A stretch of 64,000 bases of DNA from Akkermansiaceae bacterium (GTDB lineage: Bacteria; Verrucomicrobiota; Verrucomicrobiia; Verrucomicrobiales; Akkermansiaceae): positions 22,722 to 86,721 of the forward strand of contig JANXMQ010000233.1 of NCBI GenBank assembly GCA_025354565.1, read 5' to 3'. A program made the position numbers and the translations under genes. Below are positions 7,078-24,546 of the stretch, one piece after another. Under the pieces are notes generated by a model, which was not told the origin of the DNA, made no database searches, and worked only from the letters and a program-made list of their open reading frames with translations. How positions within the stretch are numbered: position 1 is the first letter of the stretch; every line of letters begins with the position of its first letter.

Positions 7078-8244
7078 TTAGGCGACGAAGGCGGCGGCAG
7101 TATCGCGTGCTTGGCGGTCCGCCGCAACCACGGACTCGAGGGTGGACGAGGGTTGGAGCGGGTGGGCGTCCATCGCGGCGGCGACGCATTGCCAGATGCC
7201 GGGGAAGGAAATTTTCCCAGCACGGAAGGCATCAACGGCGACTTCGTTAGCTGCATTGTAAACGGCGGGCAGCGTGCCACCGGCGAGTCCAGCGCGGCGG
7301 GCGAGGTCGAGGGCGGGGAAATCGGCACGCCGCGGGGCCTCGAATTCCAATTTCGCGAGTGCGGGGAAGTCCAGCGGGCGCAGGCCACCTTTCACCCGGC
7401 GCGGCCAGGTGAGGGCATATTGGATCGGAAAACACATGTCCGTCCGGCTGAGTTGGGCGAGCACCGAGCCATCGCTGAACTCGACCATCGAGTGGATGAT
7501 GCTCTGCGGGTGGACGACGACATCGATGCGTTCCATGCCGATGCCGAATAGCCAGCGGGCTTCGATCATTTCAAGGCCCTTGTTGAACAGCGTCGCGGAG
7601 TCGATGGTGATTTTCGGCCCCATCTCCCAAGTCGGATGCTTGAGCGCTTGGGCGAGGGTGACGTGGGGGATTTGGTCGGCTGGCAAGGTGCGAAACGGGC
7701 CACCGGATGCCGTTAGAATCAGTCGGGTCACTTCATCCACACCGCCGCAGTGACCATCGAGGCATTGGAAAATCGCGTTGTGCTCGCTATCGACGGGTAG
7801 GAGTTTCACCCCGCGTCTGCGAGCGGCGGTCGTGATGATTTCCCCGGCCATGACGAGGATTTCCTTGGAGGCGATGGCGAGATCCTTGCCGGCCTCGATG
7901 GCGGCCAGCGCGGGATGGAGGCCAGCGGTGCCGACGATGGCGATGAGCACGATGTCCGCCGCAGCTAGAGTGGCGAGTTCTAGCAGGCCCTCTGCGCCGA
8001 GGTGGATTTTCACTCCGGTGGGCAGCAGGGCGCGGAGTTTCGCTTCCTTGGTGGCGTCGTAAAGCGCGACATGGCGGACGCCCGTCGCGCGGGCTTGGGC
8101 GGCGAGTTTGTCGATATTACCGCAGGCGGCGAGGGCGATGATTTCGATCTCATCCGGCAGTTCGCTGGCGACCTTAAGGGTGGAACAGCCGATGGAGCCG
8201 GTGGAGCCTAACAAGACGACGCGTTTGCGGAGCGGGGCATTCAT
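7078..8244 (-). CDS. dxr: 1-deoxy-D-xylulose 5-phosphate reductoisomerase
   Basis: This cytoplasmic enzyme converts DXP to 2-C-methyl-D-erythritol 4-phosphate with NADPH, the committed step of the non-mevalonate isoprenoid pathway. At 388 residues it is normal length. The N-terminal NADPH-binding motif is GSTGSIG. ASKEILVMAGE and PVDSEHNAIFQ carry the conserved Lys and the metal-binding Asp/Glu. ASGGPFR and SATLFNKGLEMIEA are further family signatures. It follows cdsA by one base. The cdsA-dxr order is common in bacteria, usually with rseP next, but here a thioredoxin-fold gene follows instead. Confidence 0.97.
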   Translation of the reverse strand: MNAPLRKRVVLLGSTGSIGCSTLKVASELPDEIEIIALAACGNIDKLAAQARATGVRHVALYDATKEAKLRALLPTGVKIHLGAEGLLELATLAAADIVLIAIVGTAGLHPALAAIEAGKDLAIASKEILVMAGEIITTAARRRGVKLLPVDSEHNAIFQCLDGHCGGVDEVTRLILTASGGPFRTLPADQIPHVTLAQALKHPTWEMGPKITIDSATLFNKGLEMIEARWLFGIGMERIDVVVHPQSIIHSMVEFSDGSVLAQLSRTDMCFPIQYALTWPRRVKGGLRPLDFPALAKLEFEAPRRADFPALDLARRAGLAGGTLPAVYNAANEVAVDAFRAGKISFPGIWQCVAAAMDAHPLQPSSTLESVVAADRQARDTAAAFVA

Positions 8245-8245
8245 G

Positions 8246-9160
8246 TTAGGGCAGGATGACCCATTTCAGATAGAAATAAAGGGCGGGAGCGGTGAAGCAA
8301 ATGCTGTCGATGAGGTCCAGTGAGCCACCGATGCCTGGGAGCATTTTCCCCGAGTCCTTAGCGTTGATAGCGCGCTTGAGGACGCTTTCCGCGAGGTCGC
8401 CGATGACGGCTAGAATAGCTAACAGAAAACCAAGAAAAATCACGTGCCCCCACTCCTTGAAAAATCCGAGTTGCTGGGGAAACAACGCATACACCCCGCA
8501 GGCCGCGAGCTGCGAGAAGAGCAGCGCCCCGCCGAAGCCTTCCCACGTTTTCCCCGGACTCACATGTGGGATCATCTTGTGGCGACCGATCATTGAGCCG
8601 ACGATGTAGGCTCCCATGTCCGTAAATTTCGTCACCGCCAGCAGCCATAGCAGCAGACATTTTCCCGAACTACCAACCAAGGGCAGCACCTCCGTCCCCG
8701 GTGCGATGAAGGTGACCCGCGCCGCGAAATTGAACAGAAACGCGATGTAAACAAAGCCTAGCAGATTCGCCGCCACCGCTAACAGGCCCTCGATACCACG
8801 GATCGGAAAACGGAGTTGCAGGCTGAACGGCACCGCTACCGCGACGAAGATCGCAAGCGCATCCGCGTCCAGCGGCACAACTCTCCCGCCGTGCAAGAAA
8901 TGCCAGTAAAGTCCGCCACAGTAAACGGCGGCTAACAAGATGCCGAAGCGCGGAAAGCATTTGATAGCCGCCGCTCGCAGCATTTTGAAATACTCGTAGG
9001 TCGCGATCATCGCCAGCAGCCCGATCAGGCCAAGCACTGCCCAAGCGCGCCCGCCGACGAAAATCGACGACACCAAAACCCACAAAGATAGCGTACTGGC
9101 GCTGCGTCGCGCGAAGACCAGCACTTTTGATTGCATCGGAGGCGTTGGGTTATCGGCCAT
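8246..9160 (-). CDS. cdsA: Phosphatidate cytidylyltransferase (CDP-diglyceride synthase)
   Basis: CdsA makes CDP-diacylglycerol from phosphatidic acid and CTP at the inner membrane, feeding phospholipid synthesis. The 304-residue product has about eight hydrophobic helices. It carries SPGKTWEGFGGA and the C-terminal signature region SVLKRAINAKDSGKMLPG. That signature ends IGGSLDLID where the family consensus has HGGxxDRxD, so two positions vary. The ATG at 9160 (MADNPTPPMQSK) is chosen because an AGGAA-type ribosome site precedes it and the upstream 21 residues are not family-like. It is the first gene of the cdsA-dxr unit and is divergent from the EF-hand gene. Confidence 0.93.
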   Translation of the reverse strand: MADNPTPPMQSKVLVFARRSASTLSLWVLVSSIFVGGRAWAVLGLIGLLAMIATYEYFKMLRAAAIKCFPRFGILLAAVYCGGLYWHFLHGGRVVPLDADALAIFVAVAVPFSLQLRFPIRGIEGLLAVAANLLGFVYIAFLFNFAARVTFIAPGTEVLPLVGSSGKCLLLWLLAVTKFTDMGAYIVGSMIGRHKMIPHVSPGKTWEGFGGALLFSQLAACGVYALFPQQLGFFKEWGHVIFLGFLLAILAVIGDLAESVLKRAINAKDSGKMLPGIGGSLDLIDSICFTAPALYFYLKWVILP

Positions 9161-9297
9161 TTCCTGCGGAATCCAAGACCGGTCTTGCACCCGTGGCAAC
9201 TCATTCCAACCAAAGCCGCGCAACCTTTTTCACCAAGCACGGTTTGATTTCCGGACTTGGCTCTAAAACAGCCACCAAACTCCAATCGAAAATCACC

Positions 9298-9786
9298 ATG
9301 AAAACCGCAAATCTACTTACGCTGGTAGCCCTGATCGGCACCTGTTCATTCGCCTCTGCCGCAGATAAGCCAAAACGTCCCGACGGTCCGGGAACGGGCC
9401 ACGAGGTGCCACCAGAAGTTCTGAAGAAATTTGACACCAACGGCGACGGCAAGCTCGACGAAACCGAGCGCAAGGCAATGTACGTAGCCATTAAGGCCGA
9501 AATGCTCAAGAAATTCGACACCAATGGTGATGGCAAGCTTGACGAAGCCGAGCGCCAGGCGATGCAGACCGAAATTGAAGCCAGACACAAGGCCCTCCTC
9601 GATAAATATGATGCCAACAAAAACGGCAAACTCGACCCCGAAGAAATTCAGGCTGCTCGGGCGGCAGGTGAGAAAATTCCACCAATGTTCGGCCATGGAC
9701 CGTGGGGACCAGGAGGCCATGGCAAACCAGAAGGCCAAGGTAAACCGGACGGCAAAGTCCCGGGCGGTCCTCCTCCCGCTAACTGA
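9298..9786 (+). CDS. Secreted EF-hand protein
   Basis: The 162-residue product has a signal peptide (MKTANLLTLVALIG, cleavage near ASAADK). Three EF-hand loops follow: DTNGDGKLDETE, DTNGDGKLDEAE and DANKNGKLDPEE, at roughly residues 40-120. Each has Asp/Asn at the metal-coordinating positions, so calcium binding is likely. The tail is rich in Gly, Pro and Lys. The start at 9298 removes a 57-residue upstream extension overlapping the cdsA N-terminus. EF-hand proteins of this type are common in Verrucomicrobiota and Planctomycetota, and their partners are mostly unknown. A second, two-hand member occurs at 42776-43108. Confidence 0.85.
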   Translation: MKTANLLTLVALIGTCSFASAADKPKRPDGPGTGHEVPPEVLKKFDTNGDGKLDETERKAMYVAIKAEMLKKFDTNGDGKLDEAERQAMQTEIEARHKALLDKYDANKNGKLDPEEIQAARAAGEKIPPMFGHGPWGPGGHGKPEGQGKPDGKVPGGPPPAN

Positions 9787-9820
9787 GTTTAGTTAGATCT
9801 CGCTCTTGCAACCCTCAATG

Positions 9821-9856
9821 ACCGTAAGCTGGTTTTTCCGGCTTGCGGTTTATTAC
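9821..9856 (+). terminator. Terminator hairpin after EF-hand gene
   Basis: The stem accgtaagctgg pairs with ccggcttgcggt (one G-U at position 5 and one near the loop) around a ttttt loop, followed by a T-rich tttattacttct. It lies 35 bp after the EF-hand stop and just before the convergent allophanate hydrolase stop. Confidence 0.65.
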
Positions 9857-11580
9857 TTCTCGGGCAGCCATTCCCGCCAGCCGCCATATCCAGTGATTTC
9901 TTCAGCACCAACGGTCGCTCTCGGCTCGGCGATGAAGCCGGGGACTTCCTTGCCGCTTTCTAGCAAGACTTTGCCAATGCCTAACGGACCGGGAATTTCT
10001 GCCACGAAATCGCCAAACGCCGCACGCTCCAATTCCCAGACTTCCACGGTGATTGCCGCGCCATTCGCATCGTCCCGGATCAAGGCCGGGCGGGGTGGGA
10101 GCGAGCCATTGGCCGGCATCGCATACATTCGATAAACGGGAGCTGTCCGGGTTTTTTCACGCAACACCGCGCCGCGCTCCACGAGTTGCCAGTGCAAGGC
10201 GAGTCCCTCCAGATGCGCACCGCAGACGAGTAACGGAATCCTCTGTGACGCCTGTCTGTGACTGTTGATCGGCTCGCCGCAATATCTCCCGGCCAGTTCT
10301 ATCAATGCCACATCCCATCCGGCAGGAGCCGCCAGTGTCACGCCCCAGGGCGCGCGCCCGGACCTCGCCCGTCCGGCTGGCATCGCAACGGCGGATAGAT
10401 CCAGCAGGTTCATGAAATTGGTATAACGTCCAAGTACTGCATTCGTGACAAATGGATCCGCTAGATTTTCCGCGACAGTGTAGAGCCTCGGCGTAGTCGG
10501 CAGCAGCAGCACATCGATGTTTCCCCAAATGCCTTCCGCCTCCCGCGCGAATTCCCGCAGCTTGTATTGCGCCTTAAATGACGATGTCGCGTCCCAACCT
10601 TTCGATCCTTCCAAAATCTTGCGGGTCACTGGAAACACGGCATCGGGATTTTTTTCCACGAAGTCGCCAACCGCCGCCCAACGCTCGGCCACCCATGGTC
10701 CTTCGTAGAGGAGTTTCGCCGCTTCCGTGAATGGTGTTAGGTCGATCATCACCGGCCTGCCACCAAGCGCTTTCATCTGCTCCACCGCTGCCGCATAGAG
10801 TCCGGGTGTATCGGGGTCGTCAGCAAAATCAAGTGACTTCGGGACGCCGAAACGGAAACAGCTTCCGATCTCGCCAATGGGCGTCACATTGCGTGAGAAA
10901 ATATCTGTCGCATCGTAAATTCCGACCACCTGTGAGATCAGCAGGGCGTCCGCGGCACTGTTAGTGAACACGGAAATACAATCCAATGACCGACACGCGG
11001 GCACCAGGCCCCGGTTGCTCAACAACCCACGGGTCGGTTTCCAGCCAATCAATTCCTGGAACGCCGCTGGCACTCTACCAGAACCCGCCGTATCGCTACC
11101 TAACGAAAATACACATAACTCGGCGGCGACGGCCGATGCGCTGCCGGAACTCGAACCACCCGGTAGAAACTCAGCGGCGATGGCATTTCGCGGCACGCCA
11201 TAGGGTGAGCGGGTGCCGACGAGGCCGGTGGCGAATTGGTCGAGATTTCCCTTCGCAATTGGAATCGCCCCTGCCGCACGCAATAACCGGACAACCTCCG
11301 CATCCATTTCCGCGATAAATGAATACTCCGGGCAAGCCGCCGTCGTCGGCCAATTTTGCACGTCGATGTTATCCTTCACCACGAACGGGATTCCCCAAAG
11401 TGGCAGGTCGCGCGGCATTGCTTCCACGGCGGCTGCTAGAGTTAGAAGTTCAGGTTTCTCGGGCAGATGAATGAACATCGCGGGATCATTCCAATCGATG
11501 ATTTTTTGGTAAAGTTCATCGACGAGTTTGGACGGAGTGAAGCCGTCGGCGTAGCGGGATTTGAGGTCGTGGATTTTCAT
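9853..11580 (-). CDS. atzF: Allophanate hydrolase
   Basis: This enzyme hydrolyses allophanate to two ammonia and two CO2, the last step of biotin-dependent urea or guanidine breakdown. The 575-residue product has an amidase-signature domain (about 1-430) with the Lys-Ser-Ser triad visible in VVKDNID, GGSSSGSASAV and GSDTAGSGRVP. The C-terminal domain of about 140 residues is typical of AtzF-type allophanate hydrolases (AHLEGLALHWQL, GNxPxxxALxR-like region). Its length matches the stand-alone form rather than the fused urea amidolyase of yeast. It is the last gene of the nitrogen cluster, 88 bp after the carboxylase. Confidence 0.93.
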   Translation of the reverse strand: MKIHDLKSRYADGFTPSKLVDELYQKIIDWNDPAMFIHLPEKPELLTLAAAVEAMPRDLPLWGIPFVVKDNIDVQNWPTTAACPEYSFIAEMDAEVVRLLRAAGAIPIAKGNLDQFATGLVGTRSPYGVPRNAIAAEFLPGGSSSGSASAVAAELCVFSLGSDTAGSGRVPAAFQELIGWKPTRGLLSNRGLVPACRSLDCISVFTNSAADALLISQVVGIYDATDIFSRNVTPIGEIGSCFRFGVPKSLDFADDPDTPGLYAAAVEQMKALGGRPVMIDLTPFTEAAKLLYEGPWVAERWAAVGDFVEKNPDAVFPVTRKILEGSKGWDATSSFKAQYKLREFAREAEGIWGNIDVLLLPTTPRLYTVAENLADPFVTNAVLGRYTNFMNLLDLSAVAMPAGRARSGRAPWGVTLAAPAGWDVALIELAGRYCGEPINSHRQASQRIPLLVCGAHLEGLALHWQLVERGAVLREKTRTAPVYRMYAMPANGSLPPRPALIRDDANGAAITVEVWELERAAFGDFVAEIPGPLGIGKVLLESGKEVPGFIAEPRATVGAEEITGYGGWREWLPEK

Positions 11581-11668
11581 GGGGACTACACAATTGGAGC
11601 GCGGAATTCATTCCTCGCGAAATTCTGGTGAAATAATTCACGCTCCCCAGTTTTTGGTTTAGCCAGCA

Positions 11669-14600
11669 TCAGGATTGTGATTTCACAATGACCAACGTTT
11701 GACCCGCCCTGACACTCGCGCCTTCGGCCACAAGTATTTCGACAATTTCGATCTCGTCATCCGCATCGACTGAGACTTCCATTTTCATCGCTTCCAGAAT
11801 CAGCGCCGTGGCTCCCTGTGCGATCCTCATGCCAGCCGTCACTTCGATTTTCCAAACACTGCCGGTCACCGGGCTGTCCAGCGTCGTGCAACCGTCGGGG
11901 ATCACAATTTCATCCACCTCGGCCATGACTTCCGGCGGTGCATCCATCGACAAATCGGCTTCCTCCCAGCGTTTTCTTTCAGCCTCAAAGGCGGCGCGTT
12001 GCCGGGTTTGGAAGGCGTCGATCCCGGTGGCGTTTTCCGATAGAAATTTCTGATAGTCGGCGTAACGGAAGATTTGCTCCTCGATCTCCAGCTTGTGTCG
12101 TCCACGCGGGACTTCCTCACGCAAACGGAGCAATTCCTCCGCGCTCACCGGATAGAATCGAAGCTGGTCAAAGAACCGCAGCAGCCATGGATTCTGGAAA
12201 TCCTCGGTCTTCCGCCAACGGTTCCAAACGGGAATCGTCCGTCCGGTGAACTGATAGCCGCCTGGGCCTTCCATGCCGTAAATGCAGAGATATGCCCCGC
12301 CGATTCCGACCGCGTTTTCCGGTGTCCAGGTTCGTGCTGGATTGTATTTGGTCGTGACCATCCGGTGCCGCGGATCGAGAGGAGTCGCTACCGGCGCGCC
12401 TAAATAGACATCGCCCAAGCCCATCACCAGATACGAGGCGGCGAAGAATATCTGATAGACCTCGGCGATGGAACTCAGCCCGTTAATGCGCCGGATGAAT
12501 TCCAGATTGCTAGGGCACCACGGCGCGTCAGGCCGCACGCTCTGCATATAGCGGCGGATGGCTTCCTGCGTGCTCGGGTCGTCCCAACTCAGCGGCAGGT
12601 GAACGACGCGGGTGGGCACTTCGATCTGATCTAACGGCGGCAGCGAAGTGATTCCCGCGCGAATTTTTCCCCACAAATCGCCGCGCCCGATCACACCAGG
12701 ATCAAAGTGAACTTGCAGCGAGCGAATGCCGGGTGTCAGGTCGATGATGCCGGGAATCCCATGTTCCTTCAACCACTCGTGAACAACATGAACCTTGAAC
12801 CGCAACTTCAAATCGAGATGGTGCGGGCCGAATTCGATGAGGAAATAGCGGTCGCCCGCGCGACGGACGACTATGGCATCATCGCCCACACCGAACGAGT
12901 CGATGAAGCAGGTACCGCGTTCAGTTTTTAGTGGATCGGAGAGCACTGGAAGTTCGCCTGCTAGAAATTGTGAGATTTCGATCTGGCGGTCGCGTGCCCA
13001 GGCTTCATCCACTGGCACAAACTCAATGTGATCGCCTGGCCGTAGTTGACCGAGTTTCCATAACTCCGCATCCACGACCACGACCGGACAAACGAAGCCG
13101 CCGAGACTTGGGCCGTCGGGCCCGAGAATGACGGGCATGTCTCCGGTGAAATCCACCGCGCCGATGGCATAGGCGTTGTCGTGCAAATTGGACGGATGCA
13201 GTCCCGCCTCGCCGCCGTCGGTGCGCGCCCATTTCGGCTTCGGGCCTATCAGACGGACGCCGGTTCTGGCGGAGTTGTAATGAACCTCCCATTTTGTGGC
13301 GAAGAAGGTGTCGATGTCTTCATCCAAGAAAAAGTCGGGAGAGCCGTGAGGGCCGTAGAGGACAGCGATTTTCCATTCGTGACTCATGGGCAGGGAACAC
13401 TCCTTCCTGCTACTTGAGCTGACGGGTCCTCTTCCCATCCCTAGCACATCTCCGGGCAGTAAGGCTCTGCCAAAGGGGCCGCCGAATCTTCCAAGCGTGA
13501 ACGTCGAGCAACTGCCCATATACTCGGGGGATTCGATCCCACCTGACACCGCCAGATAGGCACGTGATCCGCTGCCTTCGAATCTGCCGATCTTCAACAA
13601 ATCACCTGCCGTAATTTCAATGCGGCTATTCATTGCTACCGGCTCACCATTCTTCATCACCAGCGCACTGGCACCCACGATGGCGATGGTTGTTGCATGG
13701 TTAAATCGCAGCGTCGGCCCGGTCATGGTGATTTCCAATCCCGGCGCTCCTTCCGGATTCGCTACCATGCGGTTGGCGAGGCGAAGTGATAGGGAATCGA
13801 ACGGCCCGCACGGCGGCACGCCAACTTCCCAGTAACCAATACGCCCCGGCCAATCCTGCACCGTCGTCATCGTTCCAGCGGTCATCACGTCGATGGTGTT
13901 AGGTGTGTAGCAAAACTCCGCCATATCCCGCATCGCCACGCCGCCCATGAGATACGGCTCCCAGCGGGTGATGTCGCGCAGGTAACGGAGATTTGTTTCG
14001 ATTCCTGAAATCTTGGTTTCTTCCAGTGCCTTCTCGATCTTCGCAACTGCGGCAGCGCGGTCATCCGCCAGCACCATCACTTTGGCTAACAGCGGATCAT
14101 AAAACGGACTGACCTCGGTGCCCGGCGCGATCCAGCCATCGCAGCGCGTCCACTCGGGGAAACATGCTTCGGTTAGCAAGCCGCAGCTCGGGCGGAAATT
14201 GTGATTCGGATCTTCCGCATAGACGCGGGCTTGGATGGCGCAGCCTTTGGGTTCCGGTGCGCTGGCTGGCATTTCCCAATTTTCTTCAAGCGCGAGCCGG
14301 ACCATCCATTCCACGATGTCGATGCCGGTGACGAGTTCCGTAATACCGTGCTCGACTTGCAGACGCGTGTTCACTTCGAGGAAAAAGAAGTCATCTCGAT
14401 CTGCATCGTAGATAAACTCCACGGTGCCGGCGGAGCGGTAACTAACACTTTCTCCGAGTTTCACCGCAGCCTCATGCAGAGCGGCACGGGTTTTGTCTGA
14501 TAGACCGGGTGCCGGGGTTTCCTCGAAGACTTTCTGATTGCGGCGCTGGACCGAGCAATCGCGTTCGCCAAGAGCCAGCACCCGGCCTTTGCCATCGCCA

Positions 14601-15232
14601 AAGATCTGCACTTCCACATGTCGGCCACGTTGGATGAAGCGCTCGATGAACACACTGCCGGAGCCGAAACTCCGCTCGCTCAACCTCACCACGCTTTCAT
14701 ACTCACGTTGCAATTCCGCCTCATCGCGGCAAACTTTCATCCCGATGCCGCCGCCGCCCGCCGTGCTCTTCAGCATGACGGGATAGCCGATTTCCTTCGC
14801 TGCGATGACCGCCGCGTCGGCATTCTCCAACAGTCCGGTACCAGGAACTAATGGCACGCCCGCTTCTCCGGCGAGGCGGCGGGCTTCGTGTTTCAGGCCG
14901 AAGGCGATGATTTGTTCCGGCGTCGGTCCCATCCATCTAACACCAGCAGTTTCGCACATGCGGGCGAAGTCGGTGTTTTCACTGAGCAAGCCATAACCGG
15001 GAAATACCGCCATCGCTCTGGATACACGAGCGATGGCTAACAATTTATCCTTGAGCAGATAACTTTCAGAAACCGGACCGGGTCCGAGACGATGGGCTTC
15101 ATCCGCTAGATCGACGTGCGGTGCGCCGGAGTCGGGATCGGAATAGACGGCGATGCTTTTGTAGCCGAGTTTTTTGAAAGTGCGGATGGCGCGGGCGGCG
15201 ATCTCGCCTCGGTTTGCGATGAGGATTTTCAT
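11669..15232 (-). CDS. Biotin-dependent urea/guanidine carboxylase
   Basis: This ATP- and biotin-dependent enzyme carboxylates urea or guanidine, giving allophanate or carboxyguanidine. The 1,187-residue product has a biotin carboxylase domain (about 1-450, with the ATP-grasp loop KSTAGGGGIGM and RDCSVQRRNQK). It is followed by a KipA-like/KipI-like carboxyltransferase region (from about 460, MTAGTMTTVQDWPGR) and a C-terminal biotinyl domain with the target lysine in EAMKME. Length and order match bacterial urea carboxylases. Because two DUF1989 genes sit directly upstream, the physiological substrate may be guanidine: that gene set is now known to be guanidine carboxylase plus carboxyguanidine deiminase. 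Sequence alone does not settle this here. Confidence 0.93.
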   Translation of the reverse strand: MKILIANRGEIAARAIRTFKKLGYKSIAVYSDPDSGAPHVDLADEAHRLGPGPVSESYLLKDKLLAIARVSRAMAVFPGYGLLSENTDFARMCETAGVRWMGPTPEQIIAFGLKHEARRLAGEAGVPLVPGTGLLENADAAVIAAKEIGYPVMLKSTAGGGGIGMKVCRDEAELQREYESVVRLSERSFGSGSVFIERFIQRGRHVEVQIFGDGKGRVLALGERDCSVQRRNQKVFEETPAPGLSDKTRAALHEAAVKLGESVSYRSAGTVEFIYDADRDDFFFLEVNTRLQVEHGITELVTGIDIVEWMVRLALEENWEMPASAPEPKGCAIQARVYAEDPNHNFRPSCGLLTEACFPEWTRCDGWIAPGTEVSPFYDPLLAKVMVLADDRAAAVAKIEKALEETKISGIETNLRYLRDITRWEPYLMGGVAMRDMAEFCYTPNTIDVMTAGTMTTVQDWPGRIGYWEVGVPPCGPFDSLSLRLANRMVANPEGAPGLEITMTGPTLRFNHATTIAIVGASALVMKNGEPVAMNSRIEITAGDLLKIGRFEGSGSRAYLAVSGGIESPEYMGSCSTFTLGRFGGPFGRALLPGDVLGMGRGPVSSSSRKECSLPMSHEWKIAVLYGPHGSPDFFLDEDIDTFFATKWEVHYNSARTGVRLIGPKPKWARTDGGEAGLHPSNLHDNAYAIGAVDFTGDMPVILGPDGPSLGGFVCPVVVVDAELWKLGQLRPGDHIEFVPVDEAWARDRQIEISQFLAGELPVLSDPLKTERGTCFIDSFGVGDDAIVVRRAGDRYFLIEFGPHHLDLKLRFKVHVVHEWLKEHGIPGIIDLTPGIRSLQVHFDPGVIGRGDLWGKIRAGITSLPPLDQIEVPTRVVHLPLSWDDPSTQEAIRRYMQSVRPDAPWCPSNLEFIRRINGLSSIAEVYQIFFAASYLVMGLGDVYLGAPVATPLDPRHRMVTTKYNPARTWTPENAVGIGGAYLCIYGMEGPGGYQFTGRTIPVWNRWRKTEDFQNPWLLRFFDQLRFYPVSAEELLRLREEVPRGRHKLEIEEQIFRYADYQKFLSENATGIDAFQTRQRAAFEAERKRWEEADLSMDAPPEVMAEVDEIVIPDGCTTLDSPVTGSVWKIEVTAGMRIAQGATALILEAMKMEVSVDADDEIEIVEILVAEGASVRAGQTLVIVKSQS

Positions 15233-15271
15233 TATGATAATGGACCGCGAATTAAATTTCGCAGTTTGTTG

Positions 15272-15901
15272 CTAGAAAATTAAAACCTCCACGGGCGTTG
15301 GATTCCAACCGTTGCAAGGATTGTTGAGTTGGGGACAGTTTGAGATGAGACAGACGACATCCATTTCAGCCCGCATTTCCACATATCTTCCGGGTGCGGA
15401 AATGCCATCGGCGAAGGTGAGTCCGCCGTCAGGGGAGACAGGGACGTTCATGAAAAAATTGATGTTAGGGCCGATGTCGCGTTTCGTCAGTTCGATGTCC
15501 CATTCCTGCGCGCCACGAATGAAAATATCGCGGCAGGCGTGCATGCATTCCTTGTCGTGGGCATAGCGCATGGTGTTGGATTCACGGGAGCAGGCTCCGC
15601 CGAGCGTATCGTGACGACCGCAGGTGTCGGCGGTGATGGTGAGAAGGGGGTTGCCTTCGGTGCTCATGAGCTTGGTGCCAGTCGTTAGATAAAGCGCTGA
15701 TTGTTCCTGGATGGTGCGGTCCGCGCTGTAGCGTTCGGTTGGATCGGCGGCGCTGAAGAATAGCGTGTCAGCCGCTTGGTTTCCTTCGAGGTCGAGGATG
15801 CGCAGGGTCTGGCCTTGTTTGATTTCATGAATCCACCAATCACCCGCGGGAATGACCTCGCGGAAGGCGGCGGACTCGGGTTGGAGCGTGCTAGCGGTCA
15901 T
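15272..15901 (-). CDS. DUF1989 protein, carboxyguanidine deiminase subunit type
   Basis: The 209-residue protein belongs to the urea-carboxylase-associated (DUF1989) family. In characterised systems two such proteins form carboxyguanidine deiminase (CgdAB), turning carboxyguanidine into allophanate plus ammonia. Conserved features are the [12 protein letters not shown] region, likely metal-binding residues in [12 protein letters not shown], and the C-terminal [11 protein letters not shown]. The start MTAST at 15901 lies 5 bp after the previous gene's stop, so tight translational linkage to its partner is likely. It precedes the carboxylase by 39 bp. Confidence 0.88.
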
Positions 15902-15906
15902 GTCAG

Positions 15907-16623
15907 TTAGAATCGGAGCGAGTGATAGGCTTCATTGTTCTCCCAAGCGCGGAAATTTTCCGGGCGAATGACAAATGATGGGTCATCCGGGGTAGGAAGC
16001 TCGCCGGTTAATACTTCCAGTTTCACGGGCTGTTGGCGATAGACCGGATCCGGGTCGAGCGGGTGCTGGCAGGTGTTGAGCACGACGAGTGTATCGATTT
16101 CAAAACGAAGTTCTATCGAATCTCCCTGTTTTGAATTTTCGGAAACAAAGGAAAGTTTCCCCGTTTCATCCGCGACGACCTTGCTGAAAAAATTGAGGTT
16201 CGGGACGAAGTCTTTTTTGCCGAGTCCCCACTTGGCGAGTTCGATCAGAAAGCAATCTCGACCGTTGCGGTGCCAATCGTTGCGTGCATTCTGATAGTCG
16301 GATTTCCCATATTTCGCAAGGACTCGGGCGGCATCGGAATGACCACAGACCGTATCGTGCCAACCGACGCTGTCCGCCGTGATGGAGGCTAACAAGCGGC
16401 CCATGTCCGAGTGCAGGCAGTAGGGTGCGCGCAGGAAAAAGATATGTTGCCCTTTGAGCGTGTCAGGCATGTTGTAGCGTTCCTGACGTTCGAGCGCGTT
16501 GTATAGCAGCATGCTGACATTCGCTCCGCCGTTAATGTCGGTTAGGCGGAGGCGCTTGCCACGGGAGATGATGGCGGACCACATGCCGGCACCGTAGAGG
16601 GTTTTGGAGAGAATGGGAGTCAT
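15907..16623 (-). CDS. DUF1989 protein, second carboxyguanidine deiminase subunit type
   Basis: The 238-residue protein is the longer member of the DUF1989 pair. It shares the fold with the downstream gene: [13 protein letters not shown] corresponds to the Asn-rich strand, GWHDTVCGH to the metal-site loop, and [11 protein letters not shown] to the C-terminal Cys motif. In known systems the two paralogues act as a heteromeric carboxyguanidine deiminase. The ATG at 16623 ([11 protein letters not shown]) is preferred over the track start at 16665, which would overlap the regulator gene by 23 bp. It lies 19 bp downstream of that regulator and is probably co-transcribed with it. Confidence 0.87.
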
Positions 16624-16642
16624 GGCGGAACAAAGCTGAGTT

Positions 16643-17119
16643 TCAGTCGCGGGTATCCTCCTCATCCGCTTCGGTCTGGATCTGAGGCATGAGGGTGCGG
16701 GTGAGATTGAGTCTGCCAGCCATCACCCCTCTGACTGCTAACAGACGGTTAGCAATCTGTCGGAGCCGTTTGGCCGGGCCTTGGACGAGGATGACTTCCA
16801 TGGTGCAGGTGTTTTGTAAAAGGACATGCAGCGAGCTGATCACTTCGCGGATATGTTCGTGCTGGATGTCCGAGATCTGTTGCTTGATGCCCGATCGTTT
16901 GTGATCGTAAAACAGAGTGATGGTTCCGGCCATCAAGGTGTTGCCTTTGAGACTGTAGTAATCGGCGATGTGCTGGGTGAGCACCTCAGCGACGGCTTGA
17001 GAACGGTTGACAAAACCGCGTTCGGTCATGAGTTGCTCGAACTGCCTGTGCAAGGCATCCGGTATCGAAATCGTCATACGGTGCGCGGTGGTTTCTGACT
17101 TGGTGCGGGTGGTTGCCAT
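16643..17119 (-). CDS. nikR: NikR-like ribbon-helix-helix metal-responsive regulator
   Basis: The 158-residue product has an N-terminal ribbon-helix-helix domain after a 14-residue basic arm ([13 protein letters not shown], matching the RVTITLDDD type of NikR). A C-terminal ACT-like metal domain starts near residue 62. Aligned with E. coli NikR, the His76 and His87 equivalents are present (DIQHEH, SSLHV) and a Cys follows. However, the His89 position is Leu, and the His-Cys spacing is one residue short (HVLLQNTC). Nickel binding may therefore be altered. An exact NikR-type operator lies just upstream. In this position it probably controls its own gene and the downstream deiminase, carboxylase and hydrolase genes. 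The family call is firm; the metal sensed is not. Confidence 0.85.
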
Positions 17120-17171
17120 GGGTTTGATATAGCGGCGGGAATCCCATAAGTATAAGCATTTCTAGAAAAAA

Positions 17172-17199
17172 GTATGATTTAAAATACTATTCCTCATAC
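17172..17199. promoter_or_regulatory. NikR-type operator, GTATGA-N16-TCATAC
   Basis: GTATGA at 17172-17177 and TCATAC at 17194-17199 form perfect inverted half-sites separated by exactly 16 bp. This is the published E. coli NikR operator consensus. The site lies 53-80 bp upstream of the nikR-like start codon in an AT-rich stretch that would contain its promoter, so autoregulation and control of the downstream operon are likely. The match itself is seen directly; binding is inferred. Confidence 0.85.
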
Positions 17200-17207
17200 T
17201 ACAAATT

Positions 17208-18107
17208 TCACTCGACGCTGTCGTTCACATCGGTCATCCGGCCAATCGGTAATTTGTCGAATGATGGTTTCGCATGTGAGTCTTCCGGGTGAATAATGGT
17301 TTCGAGATGGCTTTTGGTGGCGAGGAATTCCGGGCTCCGAATCTGCTCGTGATCGCGCGGGCGGGGAACGGGGACCTCGACGATTTCGCGAATGCGGCCA
17401 GGCCGGGGATCAAGCACGAGGATGCGATCGGATAGAAAAATCGCCTCATCGAGATCGTGGGTGATGAAAAAGATGGTGATGTCGACGTTTTTCCAAATCT
17501 GGAGCAGGTAAGCCTGCATCTGCTGGCGGGTCTGCGGATCAAGCGCACCGAACGGTTCGTCCATCAGCAGAATGCGCGGCTCGTTGGCAAGGGCACGGGC
17601 GATGGCGGCACGCTGCTTCATGCCGCCGCTCAGTTGGTGCGGATAGGACTCCTCGAACTTGTCCAAGCCGACGAGCGCGAGCCACTGGCGGGCTTCGGAC
17701 TGATTGGTGAAATCGCTTTTCCCCGCCATGCGCGGGCCATACATGACGTTCTGTTTTACGGTAAGCCACGGAAACAGGGTGTAGCTTTGGAAAACCATGC
17801 CCCGGTCGCGACCGGGACCGATGACCGGATTTCCATCGACGAGAACTTGCCCCGCGCTGGGAGTTTCCAAGCCAGCTAGAATCCGGATGAGGGTGGATTT
17901 TCCGCAACCGGACTGACCGAGCACGCACATGAACTCACGACGGTGGACAGTTAGATTGATATCCTGCAGGGCGACGACTTCACCGGCTTTCGAGTGGAAG
18001 CGTTTGTAGAGACCTGATATTTCCAATAGTTTCGGGCGAGCTTTGAGCTTGTCGAAACGAGCCTTCACCCCAGGCGACTGGTCTTTGTAGGAGAGGCTCG
18101 CAATCAT
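17208..18107 (-). CDS. ABC transporter ATP-binding protein (nitrate/taurine type)
   Basis: This cytoplasmic ATPase powers the adjacent importer. The 299-residue product has Walker [10 protein letters not shown], the Q-loop in [10 protein letters not shown], signature LSGGMKQR, Walker [12 protein letters not shown] and the switch His in [10 protein letters not shown]. It is of the TauB/SsuB/NrtD class and carries an N-terminal extension of about 30 residues. Its start overlaps the permease stop by 4 bp (ATGA), indicating translational coupling. Transporters of this class often accompany urea/guanidine carboxylase genes. Confidence 0.93.
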
Positions 18108-19477
18108 GGAGAATCGAGGGTAGTGGCTGCTGCCGGGGGACTCGATGGGCCGAGGATCCTGCTTCTGGCAGAGAAAAACCGACCGAAGAATCCTTGCTTT
18201 GGCTGGTCAACCCAAGGGAAGAAGTAGCGGGCTAGGTAAGCGAGAATCTGGTCCATGAAAAATCCGGATAGACCGATGAGGAGGATGGCCGGATAGACAA
18301 TGTCGAACTGGAAGCGGCGGCCGTGAGTATCGATGATTTCCGCGAGGCCGCTTTTGAAGCCGAGAAGTTCCGCGATGACAAGCCAAGTCCAGGCGGTGCC
18401 GAAAAGCAGGCGCAGATCCTTGTAAAGGTTCGGCAGGATGCCGGGGAGGACGACGGTGGTGATGAGCTGCCGTTGGTTGGCGCCGAGAGTCTGTGCGGCT
18501 TCTAGCAGCGACCCGTCCAGGCCGCGGGTGGTTTTGGAAATAGTGAGAATCGCGGAGGGCAGGGTGCCGAGAAAAACGAGCATGATTTTCGGACCCAGAT
18601 CGAGGCCGAAGATCGCCATGAGCACCACTCCGAAAGCCGGGGCAGGCATGTAACTGAAGAAATTGACGAAGGGTTCGACGAGTTTTGAAACCAGATCGAA
18701 AGTGCCTGCCAGGACGCCGATGGGAATAGCGACGAGGATGGCCAGGAGAAATCCGAGAACGATGGTGCGCCATGATTCACCGTAGCGCTGGAGCAGAGAT
18801 TTGCGCTCGGCGTTTGCATCGCCTTCCTCGGGTTTTCCGGCGGTGATGCCTTTCCAAAATGAGACTGCGACGACATCGGGTGGAACCAAATAGACCGGGC
18901 GGGAAACCTCTTCGATGGACTCCGGTAGGAGTTTGAGGAGCGTTTCCTTAGGATATTCGGTGCCTGCTTTGGCGAGCATTTCGGCGTTCGATTTGATGAT
19001 CGCCAGATTCTCCGTAGAGAGCGGCTGTTTCTTGGCTTTCAGCTCGCCGGCCGCGACTTGAAGCCATGTTTTGCGGATTGCCTCATCATCAATCTCCTGC
19101 TCGCGGGTGAGCCAACTGTTAGCGATAGCCAGCGGATGGATCTGACGGAGGATCTTCTTGTTTTGTCGTGCGGAACCGGCGGTTGGCTGGCCACTTTCCC
19201 GGGCAGCCATGATTTCCCTGTTGTCTTGGGCGATAGTCGTTGTGAAATCTTTCCAGATGTTAGGTGTGAGGCGGTCGCCTACGGAATAGACGCTCTGGAG
19301 ACGGGGGCTTTCCGCAGAGAGGGAGATCTGTCGTGCGACCTTCCACCACGGGCCATAGGAGGCGATGGCCCAGATGACTAGCGGAAGAACGAATGACAGC
19401 GCCATCATCAGCGATGAGCGCGTGTGGTCCAAGTCCTTCCTCACCATGAACCATCGACCTGCGGTTGGGGATTTCAT
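18104..19477 (-). CDS. ABC transporter permease with large extracytoplasmic insertion
   Basis: The 457-residue protein is the membrane subunit of the importer, of TauC/SsuC type. The first helix is near residues 23-41. Next comes a hydrophilic, charged stretch of about 150 residues not found in ordinary TauC proteins, then the PPDVV region, and a binding-protein-dependent transport domain of about five helices from residue 235. The EAA-like loop reads [15 protein letters not shown]. The start at 19477 ([10 protein letters not shown]) avoids overlap with the binding-protein gene and gives a 31-bp gap. The insertion probably lies in the periplasm and might contact the binding protein. Confidence 0.88.
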
Positions 19478-19508
19478 GGCAAGAGGAAGGCCTGTGGCAG
19501 GATCCGAT

Positions 19509-20486
19509 CTATTTAGCCAGTGCTTCCTTGGTGAGCGTGGGATCGAAGTAGGAACCAACGTCTGCTGGTTTCGCGTAAACTTTGTATTTCACGTTGAAGT
19601 CATCCACCACTTTCGAAGAGCCATAGATTGAGCCGAGGCCATCGGCTTTTGCCCATACCTTGATCGCCTCGGCGGGGGTTAGGATTTTGGTGCCAGCGAA
19701 GAGCGGTTCGTATTCCGCAGGTTTCACGCCGACGCGCTCGGAGAGGATGGCAAGGGCTGCATCCATGTTGTCCTCTTTCGCGAGGTATGCGGCGATGCGG
19801 TACCAGACTTTCACCACCTTGATCCAGTCCGCGCGATGGGCTTTCACGCTGTCGCGGTCACAGAACAGTCCGTCATAGATCAGGCCGGGAGCATCCTTTG
19901 AAGAGAATACGGTTTTTGAACCGGGTACCAACTTGAGGGCTTGGCCGGAGTTGGGTTGCCATGCTGCGATGGCTTCTACTTGACCGGAAGAAAATACCTG
20001 CGGTGTGCTGTTCGTTGGAGTGTTTTTGATGGTGATGTCAGTTTCCGCCATGCCGTTAAGTTCGAGGCCTTTAAGGAGCAGCAGGTGTTCGACAAAGCCT
20101 TCCTCCAACGCGATGGTCTTGCCCTTGAGATCCTTGAGTGTTTTAAAATCACCCTTCGCGACAATCATATCATTGCCATTGGAATAATCATTAAGAAGCA
20201 CACAGACGGATGGTTTGCCGGTGGCACCTGTAACGAGTGCGTCGCCATTGGTCACGCACACGGCATCGAGCTTGCCGGCGGCGTAAGCCTCCATGGATTT
20301 CACATAATCCATCCAGACGAATTCAACATCGACACCGGCTTCCTTGAACCAGCCTTTTTTGATACCAATTTCCCATGCGACCCAGCCGGGCCAGTCTGAG
20401 TAGCCGATTTTAAGCGGTTCCGCCTTGCCGAGAAGGGATGACAAAAGCAGCAGGGATGCGAGCAGAATGGTCGTGCGTTTTTTCAT
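19509..20486 (-). CDS. Periplasmic substrate-binding protein (NMT1/TauA type)
   Basis: The 325-residue protein has a signal peptide ([17 protein letters not shown], cleavage after GKA) and a type II periplasmic binding fold. Characteristic segments are [32 protein letters not shown] and [12 protein letters not shown]. Relatives linked to urea or guanidine carboxylase genes are predicted to bind urea, guanidine or related amidines. It is the first gene of the minus-strand cluster, with a sigma-54-type promoter about 50-65 bp upstream. The ligand cannot be read from sequence. Confidence 0.9.
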
Positions 20487-20536
20487 GGTGGTCGGTGTAA
20501 CTCGCTCCGAAAATCAAAATCGGAACACAAATAATT

Positions 20537-20552
20537 AGCACTCACCGTGCCA
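20537..20552 (-). promoter_or_regulatory. Sigma-54 (-24/-12) promoter
   Basis: On the minus strand the sequence reads TGGCACG-GTGA-GTGCT. The sigma-54 consensus is TGGCACG-N4-TTGCW, so 11 of 12 fixed positions match, including GG at -24 and GC at -12 with correct spacing. The start codon of the binding-protein gene lies about 50 bp downstream. Sigma-54 commonly drives nitrogen-scavenging genes, which fits the cluster. No cognate activator gene is in the window. Confidence 0.75.
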
Positions 20553-20669
20553 ACGGAATCCATAGTTCTGCCATGCTCATACGATTGAAGTGTCCGCGTC
20601 ATAAGGATTATGGCCACCTCGATGATTTTCCAGTTCCTAGATAGGGGGGAATTGGTTAAGGCTGCTGCC

Positions 20670-21221
20670 ATGAACGAATCAGTAACCCCACCGAAGAACA
20701 TCGTTCTTATCGGATTCATGGGTAGTGGGAAATCAACCGTCGGGCGCGAGCTGCATCAACGGCTCGGCTACCCATTGGTGGACATGGATCAGGTAATCGA
20801 ACAACGGGCACGGAAATCGGTCGCCGCCATCTTCGCAGATGAAGGCGAGGAAGCCTTTCGAAATGCAGAGACGCGCCTGCTTGAAGAACTCAATGACCCC
20901 ACGGGGCCGCGCCGCATCATCTCGACCGGCGGCGGGGTAATCGGACGTGCGGAAAACCGGAAGCTCCTGCGGCAGTTGGGTTACGTTGTTTGGCTGAATG
21001 CGCCGATGGCGGTGATCCTCGAAAGGACTTCGAAAAATCGCGACCGGCCGCTGCTTCACACTGCGGATCCGGCAGCGAAGATCGAGGCGCTGATAGATGT
21101 TAGAAAACCGTGCTATGAGGAAACCGCCCATCTGAAAGTGGAGACGCTGGGGCTGGACTGCGGTGAGTTGGCAACTGGGATATTGGAAAGCGCACGCTAC
21201 TTTTTCACCGGGCATCTCTAA
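20670..21221 (+). CDS. aroK: Shikimate kinase
   Basis: Shikimate kinase phosphorylates shikimate at the 3-hydroxyl in the chorismate pathway. The 183-residue product (from ATG 20670, MNESVTPPKN) has Walker A GFMGSGKST, the shikimate-binding DMDQ motif, RNAETRLL (Arg in the shikimate site), STGGGV and RDRPLL (lid Arg). The 20 residues upstream in the track ORF are unlike the family. One base separates its stop from queG, so the two genes are probably co-transcribed. Confidence 0.94.
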   Translation: MNESVTPPKNIVLIGFMGSGKSTVGRELHQRLGYPLVDMDQVIEQRARKSVAAIFADEGEEAFRNAETRLLEELNDPTGPRRIISTGGGVIGRAENRKLLRQLGYVVWLNAPMAVILERTSKNRDRPLLHTADPAAKIEALIDVRKPCYEETAHLKVETLGLDCGELATGILESARYFFTGHL

Positions 21222-21222
21222 C

Positions 21223-22251
21223 ATGATTCGGGATGAAATTAAAGCATGGGCGACGGCGCTGGGCTTCGATGACTGCCGGATCGCGAAGGCGGAGGAGGCT
21301 GCTCATGCGGATCTTTTCAGGGAATGGATTGCGGAGGGCAAGCACGGCGAAATGGCTTGGCTGGAGAGAACTCCGGAGCGTCGCTGTGATCCGCGCCAGG
21401 TGTTGCCGGGCTGTGCAACGATCATCTGCCTGGCGCTGAACTACTACCCGGGGCGTAGTCCGTTTCCCGCAGGACATCCGGGTGGCTACCGGATCGCACG
21501 GTATGCGTGGAACGAGGACTACCATGATCTCATCGAAAAGCGGCTGCGTGCATTTGACGCGAAATTACAAACACTCGGCGGCACCCAGCGGTTCTATGTG
21601 GATACCGGTCCGGTGTTGGAGCGCGACTTCGCCAGCGATGCTGGTCTCGGCTGGAATGGGAAATCCACCGTCCAGATCCATCGTCAGTTAGGGACGTGGT
21701 TTTTCCTGGCGGAACTGCTGACGACGCTCGATCTGACGCCTGATGTTCCCTTCGGCGACCATTGTGGGAAATGCACTGCTTGCATCACGGCCTGTCCGAC
21801 GCAGGCGATCACCGCGCCGCGTCGGCTGGATGCGCGGCGTTGTATTTCCTATCTAACCATCGAGCACAAGGGCGCGATACCCGAGGAGTTTCGCATTGCG
21901 ATGGGCGACCGGATCTATGGCTGCGATGATTGCCTCGACGCTTGTCCATGGAATCGCTTTGCGGTGGAGTCGCGGGAACTCTCTTTCAGTGCGCGTGAGG
22001 CGGTTTTCGAAAACCGGTTGCGGGATTTTCTAACGCTCGACGACGACGGCTTCCGCACGCTGTTCGCCAAATCCCCGATCAAGCGCATCAAGCGGTCGCG
22101 CTTTCTCCGCAATGTCTGCATCGCGTTGGGCAACACCGGAACCATCGACGACCTGCCCGCTCTGCAACGCGCCGCCGCAGATCCCGACCCGTTGATCGCC
22201 GAACACGCTTCATGGGCGGTCCAGCGGATTCAGGAACGGTTAGTTTGTTGA
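21223..22251 (+). CDS. queG: Epoxyqueuosine reductase
   Basis: QueG reduces epoxyqueuosine to queuosine in tRNA using cobalamin and two [4Fe-4S] clusters. The 342-residue product has the N-terminal DUF1730 domain (about 1-150), RDFASDAGLGWNGK, and two ferredoxin-like cysteine sets, CGKCTACITACP and CDDCLDACPWN. A short HEAT-like C-terminal part follows (NVCIALGNTG). The ATG at 21223 begins one base after the aroK stop. The product acts in the cytoplasm on tRNAs with GUN anticodons, which would include the tRNA-Asp in this window. Confidence 0.95.
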   Translation: MIRDEIKAWATALGFDDCRIAKAEEAAHADLFREWIAEGKHGEMAWLERTPERRCDPRQVLPGCATIICLALNYYPGRSPFPAGHPGGYRIARYAWNEDYHDLIEKRLRAFDAKLQTLGGTQRFYVDTGPVLERDFASDAGLGWNGKSTVQIHRQLGTWFFLAELLTTLDLTPDVPFGDHCGKCTACITACPTQAITAPRRLDARRCISYLTIEHKGAIPEEFRIAMGDRIYGCDDCLDACPWNRFAVESRELSFSAREAVFENRLRDFLTLDDDGFRTLFAKSPIKRIKRSRFLRNVCIALGNTGTIDDLPALQRAAADPDPLIAEHASWAVQRIQERLVC

Positions 22252-22257
22252 GCGCTT

Positions 22258-23661
22258 TTACAAGACGATCTTTTTAAACTTCGGCACCAGCAGGTGCATC
22301 AGCAGCCAAGCGGCGATATAGGCGGTGCCGCAAATCACGAACAGGATTCCGTAGCCCACCTCAACCTTGCCCAACTCGGTGAAATGCTTGAGCAGGAGTC
22401 CTGCCGCGCGGGCGATGAGAATGCCGCCGACCGCACCCGCCATGCCGCCGATGCCGGTGACCGACGCGACTGCTTTTTTCGGGAACATGTCAGAAACCGT
22501 GGTGAAGATGTTACACGACCATGCCGCGTGGCCGGCGCAGGCGATGGCGATGGTTGTCACGGCCAGCCAAGTGTTGATCGCGCCGAGTTTGGAAGCGAGC
22601 AGTACGCTCAACGGGAATAGGGCAAAGATGAACATCGCCAGCTTGCGGGCCTTGTTCGCATCCATGCCGCCGTCGATGAATTTCTTTGGCAGCCAGCCGC
22701 CGAAAATCGAACCGAACGTGGAGACGGTGTAGATGATGGCGATGGCCAGTTCCCAGACGATGACGCCTGGGACGTCAGAAGTTTTTCCCGAATAGGTCGG
22801 ATTGGCGGCCATGTAGAGCTTCACCTTTCTGGCGTTTTCTCCTTCGAGGAAAGCAGGCAGCCAGAACAGGAAGAACCACCAGATCGGATCAGTCATGAAT
22901 TTTCCGACAAAAAACGCCCATGTCTGACGGAATGTTAGAAGTTTGAACCATGAGACTTTCTCCTTTGCGATGTCCGCGCGCTCGGCGTCCTGCTCGTCAA
23001 TGTCGCTGTGAATGTAGTCGTATTCCGCCTGTTTGAGTTCGCCGTTGGCCAGTTTCGCGGCCGGCGTGGAATACATCGAATACCAAAATACGAGCCAAAG
23101 CAGTCCGACAGCACCGGTGAGAATGAAAGCCCATTCCCAGCCCCAGGATTTGGCGATGTAGGGTACGGTGAGCGGGGCGATGATCGCACCGAGATTGGCA
23201 CCGGAGTTATAGAGCCCTGTGGCAAAAGCGCGTTCTTTCTTGGGAAACCATTCGGCAATGGTTTTATTTGCCGCTGGGAAATTGCCTGCTTCGGCGATTC
23301 CCAGAGCCGCCCGCCAGAAGCCGAAACTCCACGTGTGATGGCCAAAGGCATGACCGATGGCGGCCAGACTCCAACCAACGAGCGAGTAGGCGTAGCCGGA
23401 TTTCGTCCCCACCTTGTCGATGATCCGACCGGCCAGCAACATGCCCGCCGCATAGGCAATTTGGAAACAGATCACCACCGTCGAGTAATTCAATTCCTGA
23501 TCCGCCTTGACCGCGCCGAACACTCCGTTTTCCGAAAGCACCGGCTTGAGGAGCCCGAGGACGTTGCGGTCGAGATAGTTAATGGTCGTTGCGGCGAAGA
23601 CTAATCCACAAATGGTCCACCGATGGCGGCCGATGGTTTCGTTTACGGAGGAGAAGGACAT
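22258..23661 (-). CDS. MFS transporter, anion:cation symporter (ExuT-like) family
   Basis: This 467-residue inner-membrane permease has twelve predicted helices. Near the N-terminus is the signature INYLDRNVLGLLKPVL, and GIAEAGNFPAANKTIAEWFP is typical of hexuronate/sugar-acid transporters of the ACS family. A long cytoplasmic loop lies near residues 215-245. The ATG at 23661 (MSFSSVNETIGRHRW) is family-like, unlike the upstream residues of the track ORF. The substrate is probably a sugar acid such as a hexuronate, but no catabolic genes are adjacent. It is convergent with queG. Confidence 0.87.
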   Translation of the reverse strand: MSFSSVNETIGRHRWTICGLVFAATTINYLDRNVLGLLKPVLSENGVFGAVKADQELNYSTVVICFQIAYAAGMLLAGRIIDKVGTKSGYAYSLVGWSLAAIGHAFGHHTWSFGFWRAALGIAEAGNFPAANKTIAEWFPKKERAFATGLYNSGANLGAIIAPLTVPYIAKSWGWEWAFILTGAVGLLWLVFWYSMYSTPAAKLANGELKQAEYDYIHSDIDEQDAERADIAKEKVSWFKLLTFRQTWAFFVGKFMTDPIWWFFLFWLPAFLEGENARKVKLYMAANPTYSGKTSDVPGVIVWELAIAIIYTVSTFGSIFGGWLPKKFIDGGMDANKARKLAMFIFALFPLSVLLASKLGAINTWLAVTTIAIACAGHAAWSCNIFTTVSDMFPKKAVASVTGIGGMAGAVGGILIARAAGLLLKHFTELGKVEVGYGILFVICGTAYIAAWLLMHLLVPKFKKIVL

Positions 23662-23700
23662 GATGGGGAAATCAATTGGGTTTGCTTGCCGCCAAGGGTG

Positions 23701-23945
23701 TTCGTGTAAAATCCTACTGACAAGGAACAAAACTCTACTCATTCGGGGAAGTCACCCGTTTGAAATATTCGCGTTCGGAGCCGTTTACGGTGCACCCATA
23801 GCGTTGATCACAGGGAAAACGGCGTGATGACAGCCGACAAAAGCATCTGCGCTCCGATTCCCAGAGAGACGATGCCGAGGGGAAAAAAATTTCTCTAAAC
23901 GATGACGAAGTTGTTCGCGTGAAATTCCACTGACAAGAAACAAAT
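23701..23945. repeat. Pair of 32-bp imperfect direct repeats
   Basis: The segments at 23701-23732 and 23914-23945 match at about 26 of 32 positions and share ACTGACAAG and AACAAA. They lie in the non-coding gap between the MFS gene and ruvA, 213 bp apart. The sequence between them has no recognisable gene. Confidence 0.55.
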
Positions 23946-23949
23946 TCGC

Positions 23950-24546
23950 TCAACCCTGCAAGGCCCGCAAGGCCCCGCGGACCAGCGCCTCCGTGGGTGC
24001 CGTCGGGTCTGTGTCGAGCACTTTCCTAACAGCCTTGCGCGCGTCCACTTGCTTGTAGCCCAGCGCGATCAGCGCCAGCTCCGCATCCGCCGCACCCGCG
24101 CTCACCTGGCCGGCCGCCGCGTCCTGCCAGGTTTCCGTCACGCCGACTTTGTCCTTGAGTTCCAGCACGATCCGCTCGGCGGTCTTTTTCCCCACGCCCT
24201 TCAATTTCGATAAGCCCGCCACATCGCCCGCCACCACCGCCTGCTTGAAGCGCGTGACATCCATCCCGCTCAGCACCGAGACCGCCATCGTCGGCCCCAC
24301 GCCGCTCACCCGGTCGATGAGCAACAGGAACACGTCCCGCTCCTCCTCGCTCGCGAAGCCGAATAATTTCTGCCCGAGTTGGCTGAAATGCAGATGCGTC
24401 CGCAAATCCACCTCCAGCCCCTCCGCCGCGTGCAGACGGTCGAAGGTCGAGAGCGGGATGAAAACCTCATAACCCACCCCATGCACATCCACCACCAGAC
24501 GGTTCGGATACGCCTCGATCACCTTGCCCCGCAGTCTCGCTATCAT
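23950..24546 (-). CDS. ruvA: Holliday junction branch migration protein RuvA
   Basis: RuvA binds four-way junctions and loads RuvB during recombinational repair. The 198-residue product has the N-terminal OB-fold (MIARLRGKVIEAY), two helix-hairpin-helix motifs (VSGVGPTMA and LKGVGKKTAERIVLEL), an acidic-poor linker and the C-terminal RuvB-contact domain (ALIALGYKQVDARKAV). Its length is typical. ruvB and ruvC are not adjacent. Confidence 0.96.
   Translation of the reverse strand: MIARLRGKVIEAYPNRLVVDVHGVGYEVFIPLSTFDRLHAAEGLEVDLRTHLHFSQLGQKLFGFASEEERDVFLLLIDRVSGVGPTMAVSVLSGMDVTRFKQAVVAGDVAGLSKLKGVGKKTAERIVLELKDKVGVTETWQDAAAGQVSAGAADAELALIALGYKQVDARKAVRKVLDTDPTAPTEALVRGALRALQG

Follow-up and report, generated by a model that had tools for sequence, protein, structure and literature searches.

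A NikR-family regulator lacking the nickel site, with sigma-54, as the predicted control of guanidine use in Verrucomicrobiota

In the present analysis, we describe a guanidine cluster of an Akkermansiaceae bacterium that is probably controlled by a nickel-blind paralogue of NikR together with sigma-54, the former being a likely repressor that guanidine or a pathway intermediate would relieve. The window, i.e., the entire stretch of DNA analysed, spans 64,000 nucleotides. The family of the regulator, the loss of its nickel ligands, its linkage to the pathway, its operator with the accompanying covariation, the sigma-54 elements and the absence of riboswitches are all read from sequence; what the effector is, and that the protein represses rather than activates, we infer, and activation or nitrogen-status sensing would leave the same sequence footprint as repression.

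All genes of the cluster lie on the minus strand and are transcribed in the order substrate-binding protein (SBP), permease, ATPase, nikR-like gene, UAAP1, UAAP2, carboxylase and allophanate hydrolase. The SBP of the ABC transporter (19509–20486) is matched best, among NCBIfam models, by TIGR03427 ("putative urea ABC transporter SBP"), at a score below cut-off; it is followed by the permease (18104–19558 as the longest ORF, with a start that is probably internal) and the ATPase (17208–18107), which would complete a guanidine importer. Downstream of the nikR-like gene (16643–17119, 158 aa) stand two DUF1989 genes for putative carboxyguanidine deiminase subunits, namely the cgdA-like UAAP1 (15907–16665; TIGR03425; true start probably an internal ATG near 16623) and the cgdB-like UAAP2 (15272–15901; TIGR03424), then a predicted guanidine carboxylase annotated as urea carboxylase (11669–15232; TIGR02712) and the allophanate hydrolase gene atzF (9853–11580; profile match). 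The guanidine pathway set, that is, the DUF1989 pair CgdA/CgdB, allophanate hydrolase and an ABC importer, is thus wholly present in the window. Just past atzF, the plus strand, opposite to that of the cluster, encodes a small protein with EF-hand-like repeats of the DTNGDGKLDE type (9127–9786).

The substrate of the pathway is indicated by the carboxylase, with which the structure of the yeast (K. lactis) urea carboxylase aligns along its length. Guanidine carboxylases carry Asp at the equivalent of K. lactis position 1330, which is Asn in urea carboxylase, in addition to Asp at 1584, and carboxyguanidine deiminase subunits are DUF1989 proteins (PMC11410670; PMC12186494). The window enzyme has Asp at the first position (VDFT, against INFT in K. 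lactis) and shares Asp 1584 (GLGDV), and the guanidine-carboxylase Asp is found in all 37 linked carboxylases read in relatives. Because of this residue, the cluster is read as one for guanidine import and degradation, not for urea, and the enzyme cannot be taken as a simple replacement of urease for urea; of the "urea/guanidine carboxylase cluster" named in the first-pass annotation, the guanidine part stands and the urea part falls.

The regulator and the carboxylase travel together. Among 387 genomes of the order (Verrucomicrobiales), both were present in 80, the regulator alone in 4, the carboxylase alone in 3 and neither in 300 (Fisher 8e-74); the four regulator-only genomes comprise three unlinked NikRs (of which two keep all of H-H-H-C and one is cut by a contig end) and one case at a contig edge. 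Of about 50 neighbourhoods, read with a simple ORF caller that missed some genes, nearly all have the regulator directly upstream of UAAP1. It also stands directly upstream of UAAP1-UAAP2-uca-atzF in the Alphaproteobacteria Novosphingobium, Sphingobium and Asticcacaulis, where the plasmid copies are annotated as a "CopG family" gene, and in Acinetobacter a relative lies between the carboxylase and the allophanate hydrolase. The combination of a nikR-like gene beside DUF1989 and carboxylase genes with the operator, which had been proposed as something to seek in relatives, recurs across the phylum and beyond. In a relative of the same genus (L055, genome G104), the nikR-like gene is broken at about 9728–10156 (internal stops and a gap) with carboxylase and allophanate hydrolase intact, offering a natural knockout for expression study.

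The regulator itself combines an RHH DNA-binding domain with a NikR_C domain (Pfam coverage 77/77, E 5.5e-25), and it is the only NikR_C protein of its genome. Its best PDB match is 2bj1 (E 5e-28), with the domain architecture matching along the full length, and its alignment with Pyrococcus horikoshii NikR (PhNikR) is ungapped over residues 14–142; an AlphaFold model built with 10 close sequences was discarded for its low confidence (pLDDT 37). Upstream of the gene, a sequence scan located GTATGATTTAAAATACTATTCCTCATAC at 17172–17199, which reads GTATGA-N16-TCATAC: half-site A (GTATGA, minus strand 17199–17194) and half-site B (TCATAC, 17177–17172) are 22 bp apart, and the operator ends 53 bp before the ATG, so that the perfect half-sites, exact spacing and distance originally noted before this NikR-family gene are all confirmed. 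It is the sole match without mismatch in the window, none arose in 100 dinucleotide shuffles of the window, and when the spacer was allowed to range from N14 to N18 it was still the one site in the whole 5.1-Mb assembly, where the reversed-pattern control gave none. A degenerate half-site C (TTATAC, 17150–17155, minus strand) lies 22 bp from half-site B, giving a layout of two perfect half-sites and one degenerate; several relatives have direct-repeat operators, TCATAC-N15-TCATAC, to which half-sites B and C correspond. A second operator candidate precedes the transporter gene (20577–20604, minus strand), with TTATGA (20604–20599) and GTATGA (20582–20577) again 22 bp apart.

Both sites are accompanied by sigma-54-like promoters, which were scored against TGGCAC-N5-TTGCW in 48 nikR and 31 SBP upstream regions with a threshold of 8. 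At the nikR-like gene, the -24/-12 element TGGGATTCCCGCCGCTA (17130–17146, minus strand; GG-N10-GC) is weak, with a score of 7; it begins 4 bp after half-site C, and its GC ends 12 nt before the ATG. Before the transporter gene, TGGCACGGTGAGTGCTA (20536–20552, minus strand) is a near-perfect sigma-54 promoter, matching 10 of 11 scored positions, with the half-site pair upstream of it; the earlier account of regulatory sites was right about the first operator and had overlooked this second pair and its promoter. Across relatives, a score of at least 8 was reached in 32/48 nikR upstream regions (2.2 expected) and 29/31 SBP upstream regions (2.3 expected). The spacing is almost exclusively GG-N10-GC, other spacings being nearly absent, and at nikR the GG usually falls 1 to 6 bp past the last half-site. 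The window's genome encodes RpoN and has four strong enhancer-binding-protein matches. This element was also considered as a sigma-70 promoter, a reading that we rejected, since the spacing of the would-be -35 and -10 boxes varies by clade and GG-N10-GC is fixed.

RHH proteins without effectors are common, and the NikR-like protein could likewise be a constitutive autorepressor or a DNA-bending architectural factor, with induction coming only through nitrogen limitation and an enhancer-binding protein. The sigma-54 elements are indeed the most uniform regulatory feature of these loci, and a factor that bends DNA could work from the half-site pair of the transporter promoter, which is upstream of the -24 element. 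We nevertheless regard such an effector-free role as rather unlikely, because the C-terminal domain is kept and differs from canonical NikR in a consistent way. In an alignment of 99 sequences, made up of 73 regulators from guanidine clusters and 26 unlinked NikRs, position 92 is Glu in 63/73 linked regulators (acidic residues being rare there in canonical NikR), and position 113 is Gln in 72/73 (Arg or Lys in canonical NikR). Such altered, clade-specific residues suggest a ligand function that has been kept but changed, and the fact that each guanidine cluster has one regulator points to substrate specificity.

Any such ligand is, judging by the residues, not nickel. According to the PhNikR alignment, the window regulator retains the equivalents of His76 and His87 and has Leu for His89 and Thr for Cys95, so that half of its four nickel ligands are lost and the set reads H-H-L-T in place of H-H-H-C. 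None of the 73 cluster-linked regulators, i.e., the window protein and 72 others, has H-H-H-C or Cys95, against all four ligands in 21 of the 26 unlinked NikRs (Fisher 4e-17, a value that is indicative, since the sequences are kin). The proposal that a nickel-responsive repressor turns on this route under nickel scarcity is therefore not upheld. In the maximum-likelihood tree, all linked regulators form one clade (75 rows, support 100/96), which lies beside canonical verrucomicrobial H-H-H-C NikRs. A subgroup with Tyr for Cys95 (H-H-H-Y; L139, L141, L143, L145 and L151) branches near the base of the clade; it may represent an intermediate between nickel sensor and nickel-blind regulator, and may bind another metal.

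A metal could still be sensed if the surviving histidines worked with new ligands, in which case the regulator would adjust guanidine breakdown by this nickel-free route, or nitrogen metabolism at large, to the supply of nickel or another metal. Several observations point that way: the two retained histidines of the window protein and its Cys at the residue just preceding position 95, the basal H-H-H-Y subgroup, the lack of any other NikR in the genome, the occurrence of urease in most linked genomes (the window's own included, and close to the cluster in some), and the public model NF003381, which labels the regulator nickel-responsive above its cut-off. We judge this quite unlikely, however, as no metal-site pattern is kept across the clade: beyond the universal loss of Cys95, His89 is missing in most linked regulators, position 76 may be His, Arg, Tyr, Ala, Gln or Leu, and the shifted Cys is confined to the closest relatives of the window. 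Moreover, it is the guanidine pathway that the linkage of the regulator tracks, rather than the transport of nickel or the enzymes that use it. As to the ureases themselves, they lie no more than about 20 kb from the guanidine cluster in L048 and in genomes G008, G013, G192, G066, G056, G092, G234 and G019; in L048, urease is divergently transcribed from the cluster and carries a predicted 5' ureB RNA (RF02514), forming a nitrogen-assimilation island. The window's genome (G000) has two full urease alpha genes (C102:35730–37439 and C174:32983–34692) and no canonical H-H-H-C NikR.

Binding of the nickel-blind regulator to the predicted sites is best argued from relatives. Paired half-sites 20–23 bp apart occur in 32/48 of their upstream regions (0.025 expected), laid out as an inverted GTATGA..TCATAC pair, as a direct TCATAC..TCATAC repeat or as a phased set of three half-sites, and they recur although the spacers have diverged; the scan of upstream regions found no recognisable operator in several linked members. 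The half-site sequence follows the residue at the equivalent of E. coli NikR position 5: with Thr, GTATGA-type half-sites were found in 18/19 relatives, and with Ser, GTATTA-type or mixed half-sites in 23/23 (Fisher 5e-11, with at least four Thr/Ser switches on the tree). The same rule is obeyed by the E. coli (Thr5, GTATGA) and Helicobacter pylori (Ser, TATTA-type) NikRs. This covariation is the strongest sequence-level evidence that the regulator binds these predicted sites; the view that a NikR-family protein with a genuine NikR-type operator governs the guanidine cluster is supported. A chance palindrome beside a hitchhiking NikR homologue, for which only the shortness of the 6-bp half-sites speaks, can be dismissed as barely credible: the site is unique in 5.1 Mb, absent from the shuffles and placed before the sole NikR-family gene of the genome, and in relatives it recurs far above expectation and covaries with a contact residue.

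The mechanism that we propose runs as follows. A NikR-family RHH regulator would have lost its nickel site and, through a single early recruitment, come to serve guanidine import and degradation as their dedicated regulator. It would bind the 22-bp-phased half-sites before its own gene, and hence also before cgdAB-gca-atzF, as well as those before the transporter gene in the window and in several relatives. Transcription would start at the sigma-54 promoters beside the operators; with such promoters, expression should require nitrogen limitation (sigma-54 with an enhancer-binding protein) and, in addition, the release or re-modelling of the NikR-like protein. At nikR, the repressor would occupy the upstream border of the polymerase site, and at the transporter gene it would sit between enhancer and promoter. 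Guanidine or a pathway intermediate would then free the DNA from the regulator, which is the same job that guanidine riboswitches do elsewhere. More specifically, and as a tentative suggestion that falls a little short of being likely, the clade may consist of proteins that sense guanidine or an intermediate of the pathway, the nickel site having been rebuilt as a small-molecule site or having given way to one.

The distribution of guanidine riboswitches bears on this proposal. An Rfam search of window positions 8000–24000 (E up to 1) found no riboswitch, and a PADLOC run gave no match. The guanidine-I riboswitch is absent from all 387 genomes of the order, and no guanidine riboswitch of any kind was found in seven verrucomicrobial and seven alphaproteobacterial NikR-linked loci; guanidine-I is present in 5/7 UAAP2 loci without the regulator (Pantoea, Burkholderia, two Rhizobium and Peteryoungia). 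Since three verrucomicrobial carboxylase loci without the regulator (L157, L158 and L159) have no guanidine riboswitch either, the replacement of riboswitch by regulator is not strict. Acinetobacter is an operator-carrying lineage with both; in A. baumannii L118, a guanidine-I riboswitch and a nickel-blind NikR relative (1916–2011 and 9001–9429, respectively) place two sensors in one locus.

The first-pass annotation knew of no described case of NikR governing this pathway, and we likewise found no paper joining NikR or CopG with the guanidine carboxylase pathway in the openly readable literature, a scope that leaves out most subscription papers. The fold family and the operator are those of NikR, whereas the regulon differs and the signal probably does as well. 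Guanidine use may have its first known transcription factor in the nickel-blind NikR relative, whose clade is a concrete, widespread candidate for such a regulator; if the clade does sense guanidine or a pathway intermediate, it would stand beside the guanidine riboswitches as their protein counterpart and be the first transcription factor known to respond to guanidine. The clade would also illustrate a metalloregulator repurposed after loss of its metal site and an RHH regulator acting right beside sigma-54 promoters, and the "nickel-responsive" name that NF003381 gives the window protein is corrected as a database error.

Compared with the NikRs of E. coli, P. horikoshii and H. pylori, the window regulator shares the full-length RHH and NikR_C architecture, the Arg3, Thr5 and Ser7 of the DNA-contact strand and, with E. 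coli NikR, the operator type GTATGA-N16-TCATAC. It differs in lacking the nickel site, in a Glu30-to-Gln substitution, in being tied to guanidine catabolism rather than nickel transport and, among its relatives, in direct-repeat and multi-half-site operators beside sigma-54 promoters. With the sigma-54 (RpoN) promoters of nitrogen limitation, the guanidine loci share TGGCAC-N5-TGC and the exact GG-N10-GC spacing, but they have an RHH operator abutting the -24 element. Lastly, the guanidine carboxylase operons run by guanidine-I or guanidine-II riboswitches in Pantoea, Rhizobium, Burkholderia and Vreelandella have the same ABC transporter, cgdAB, guanidine carboxylase and allophanate hydrolase (PMC12508155; PMC12186494), whereas the verrucomicrobial and alphaproteobacterial NikR-linked loci carry a protein regulator and no riboswitch.
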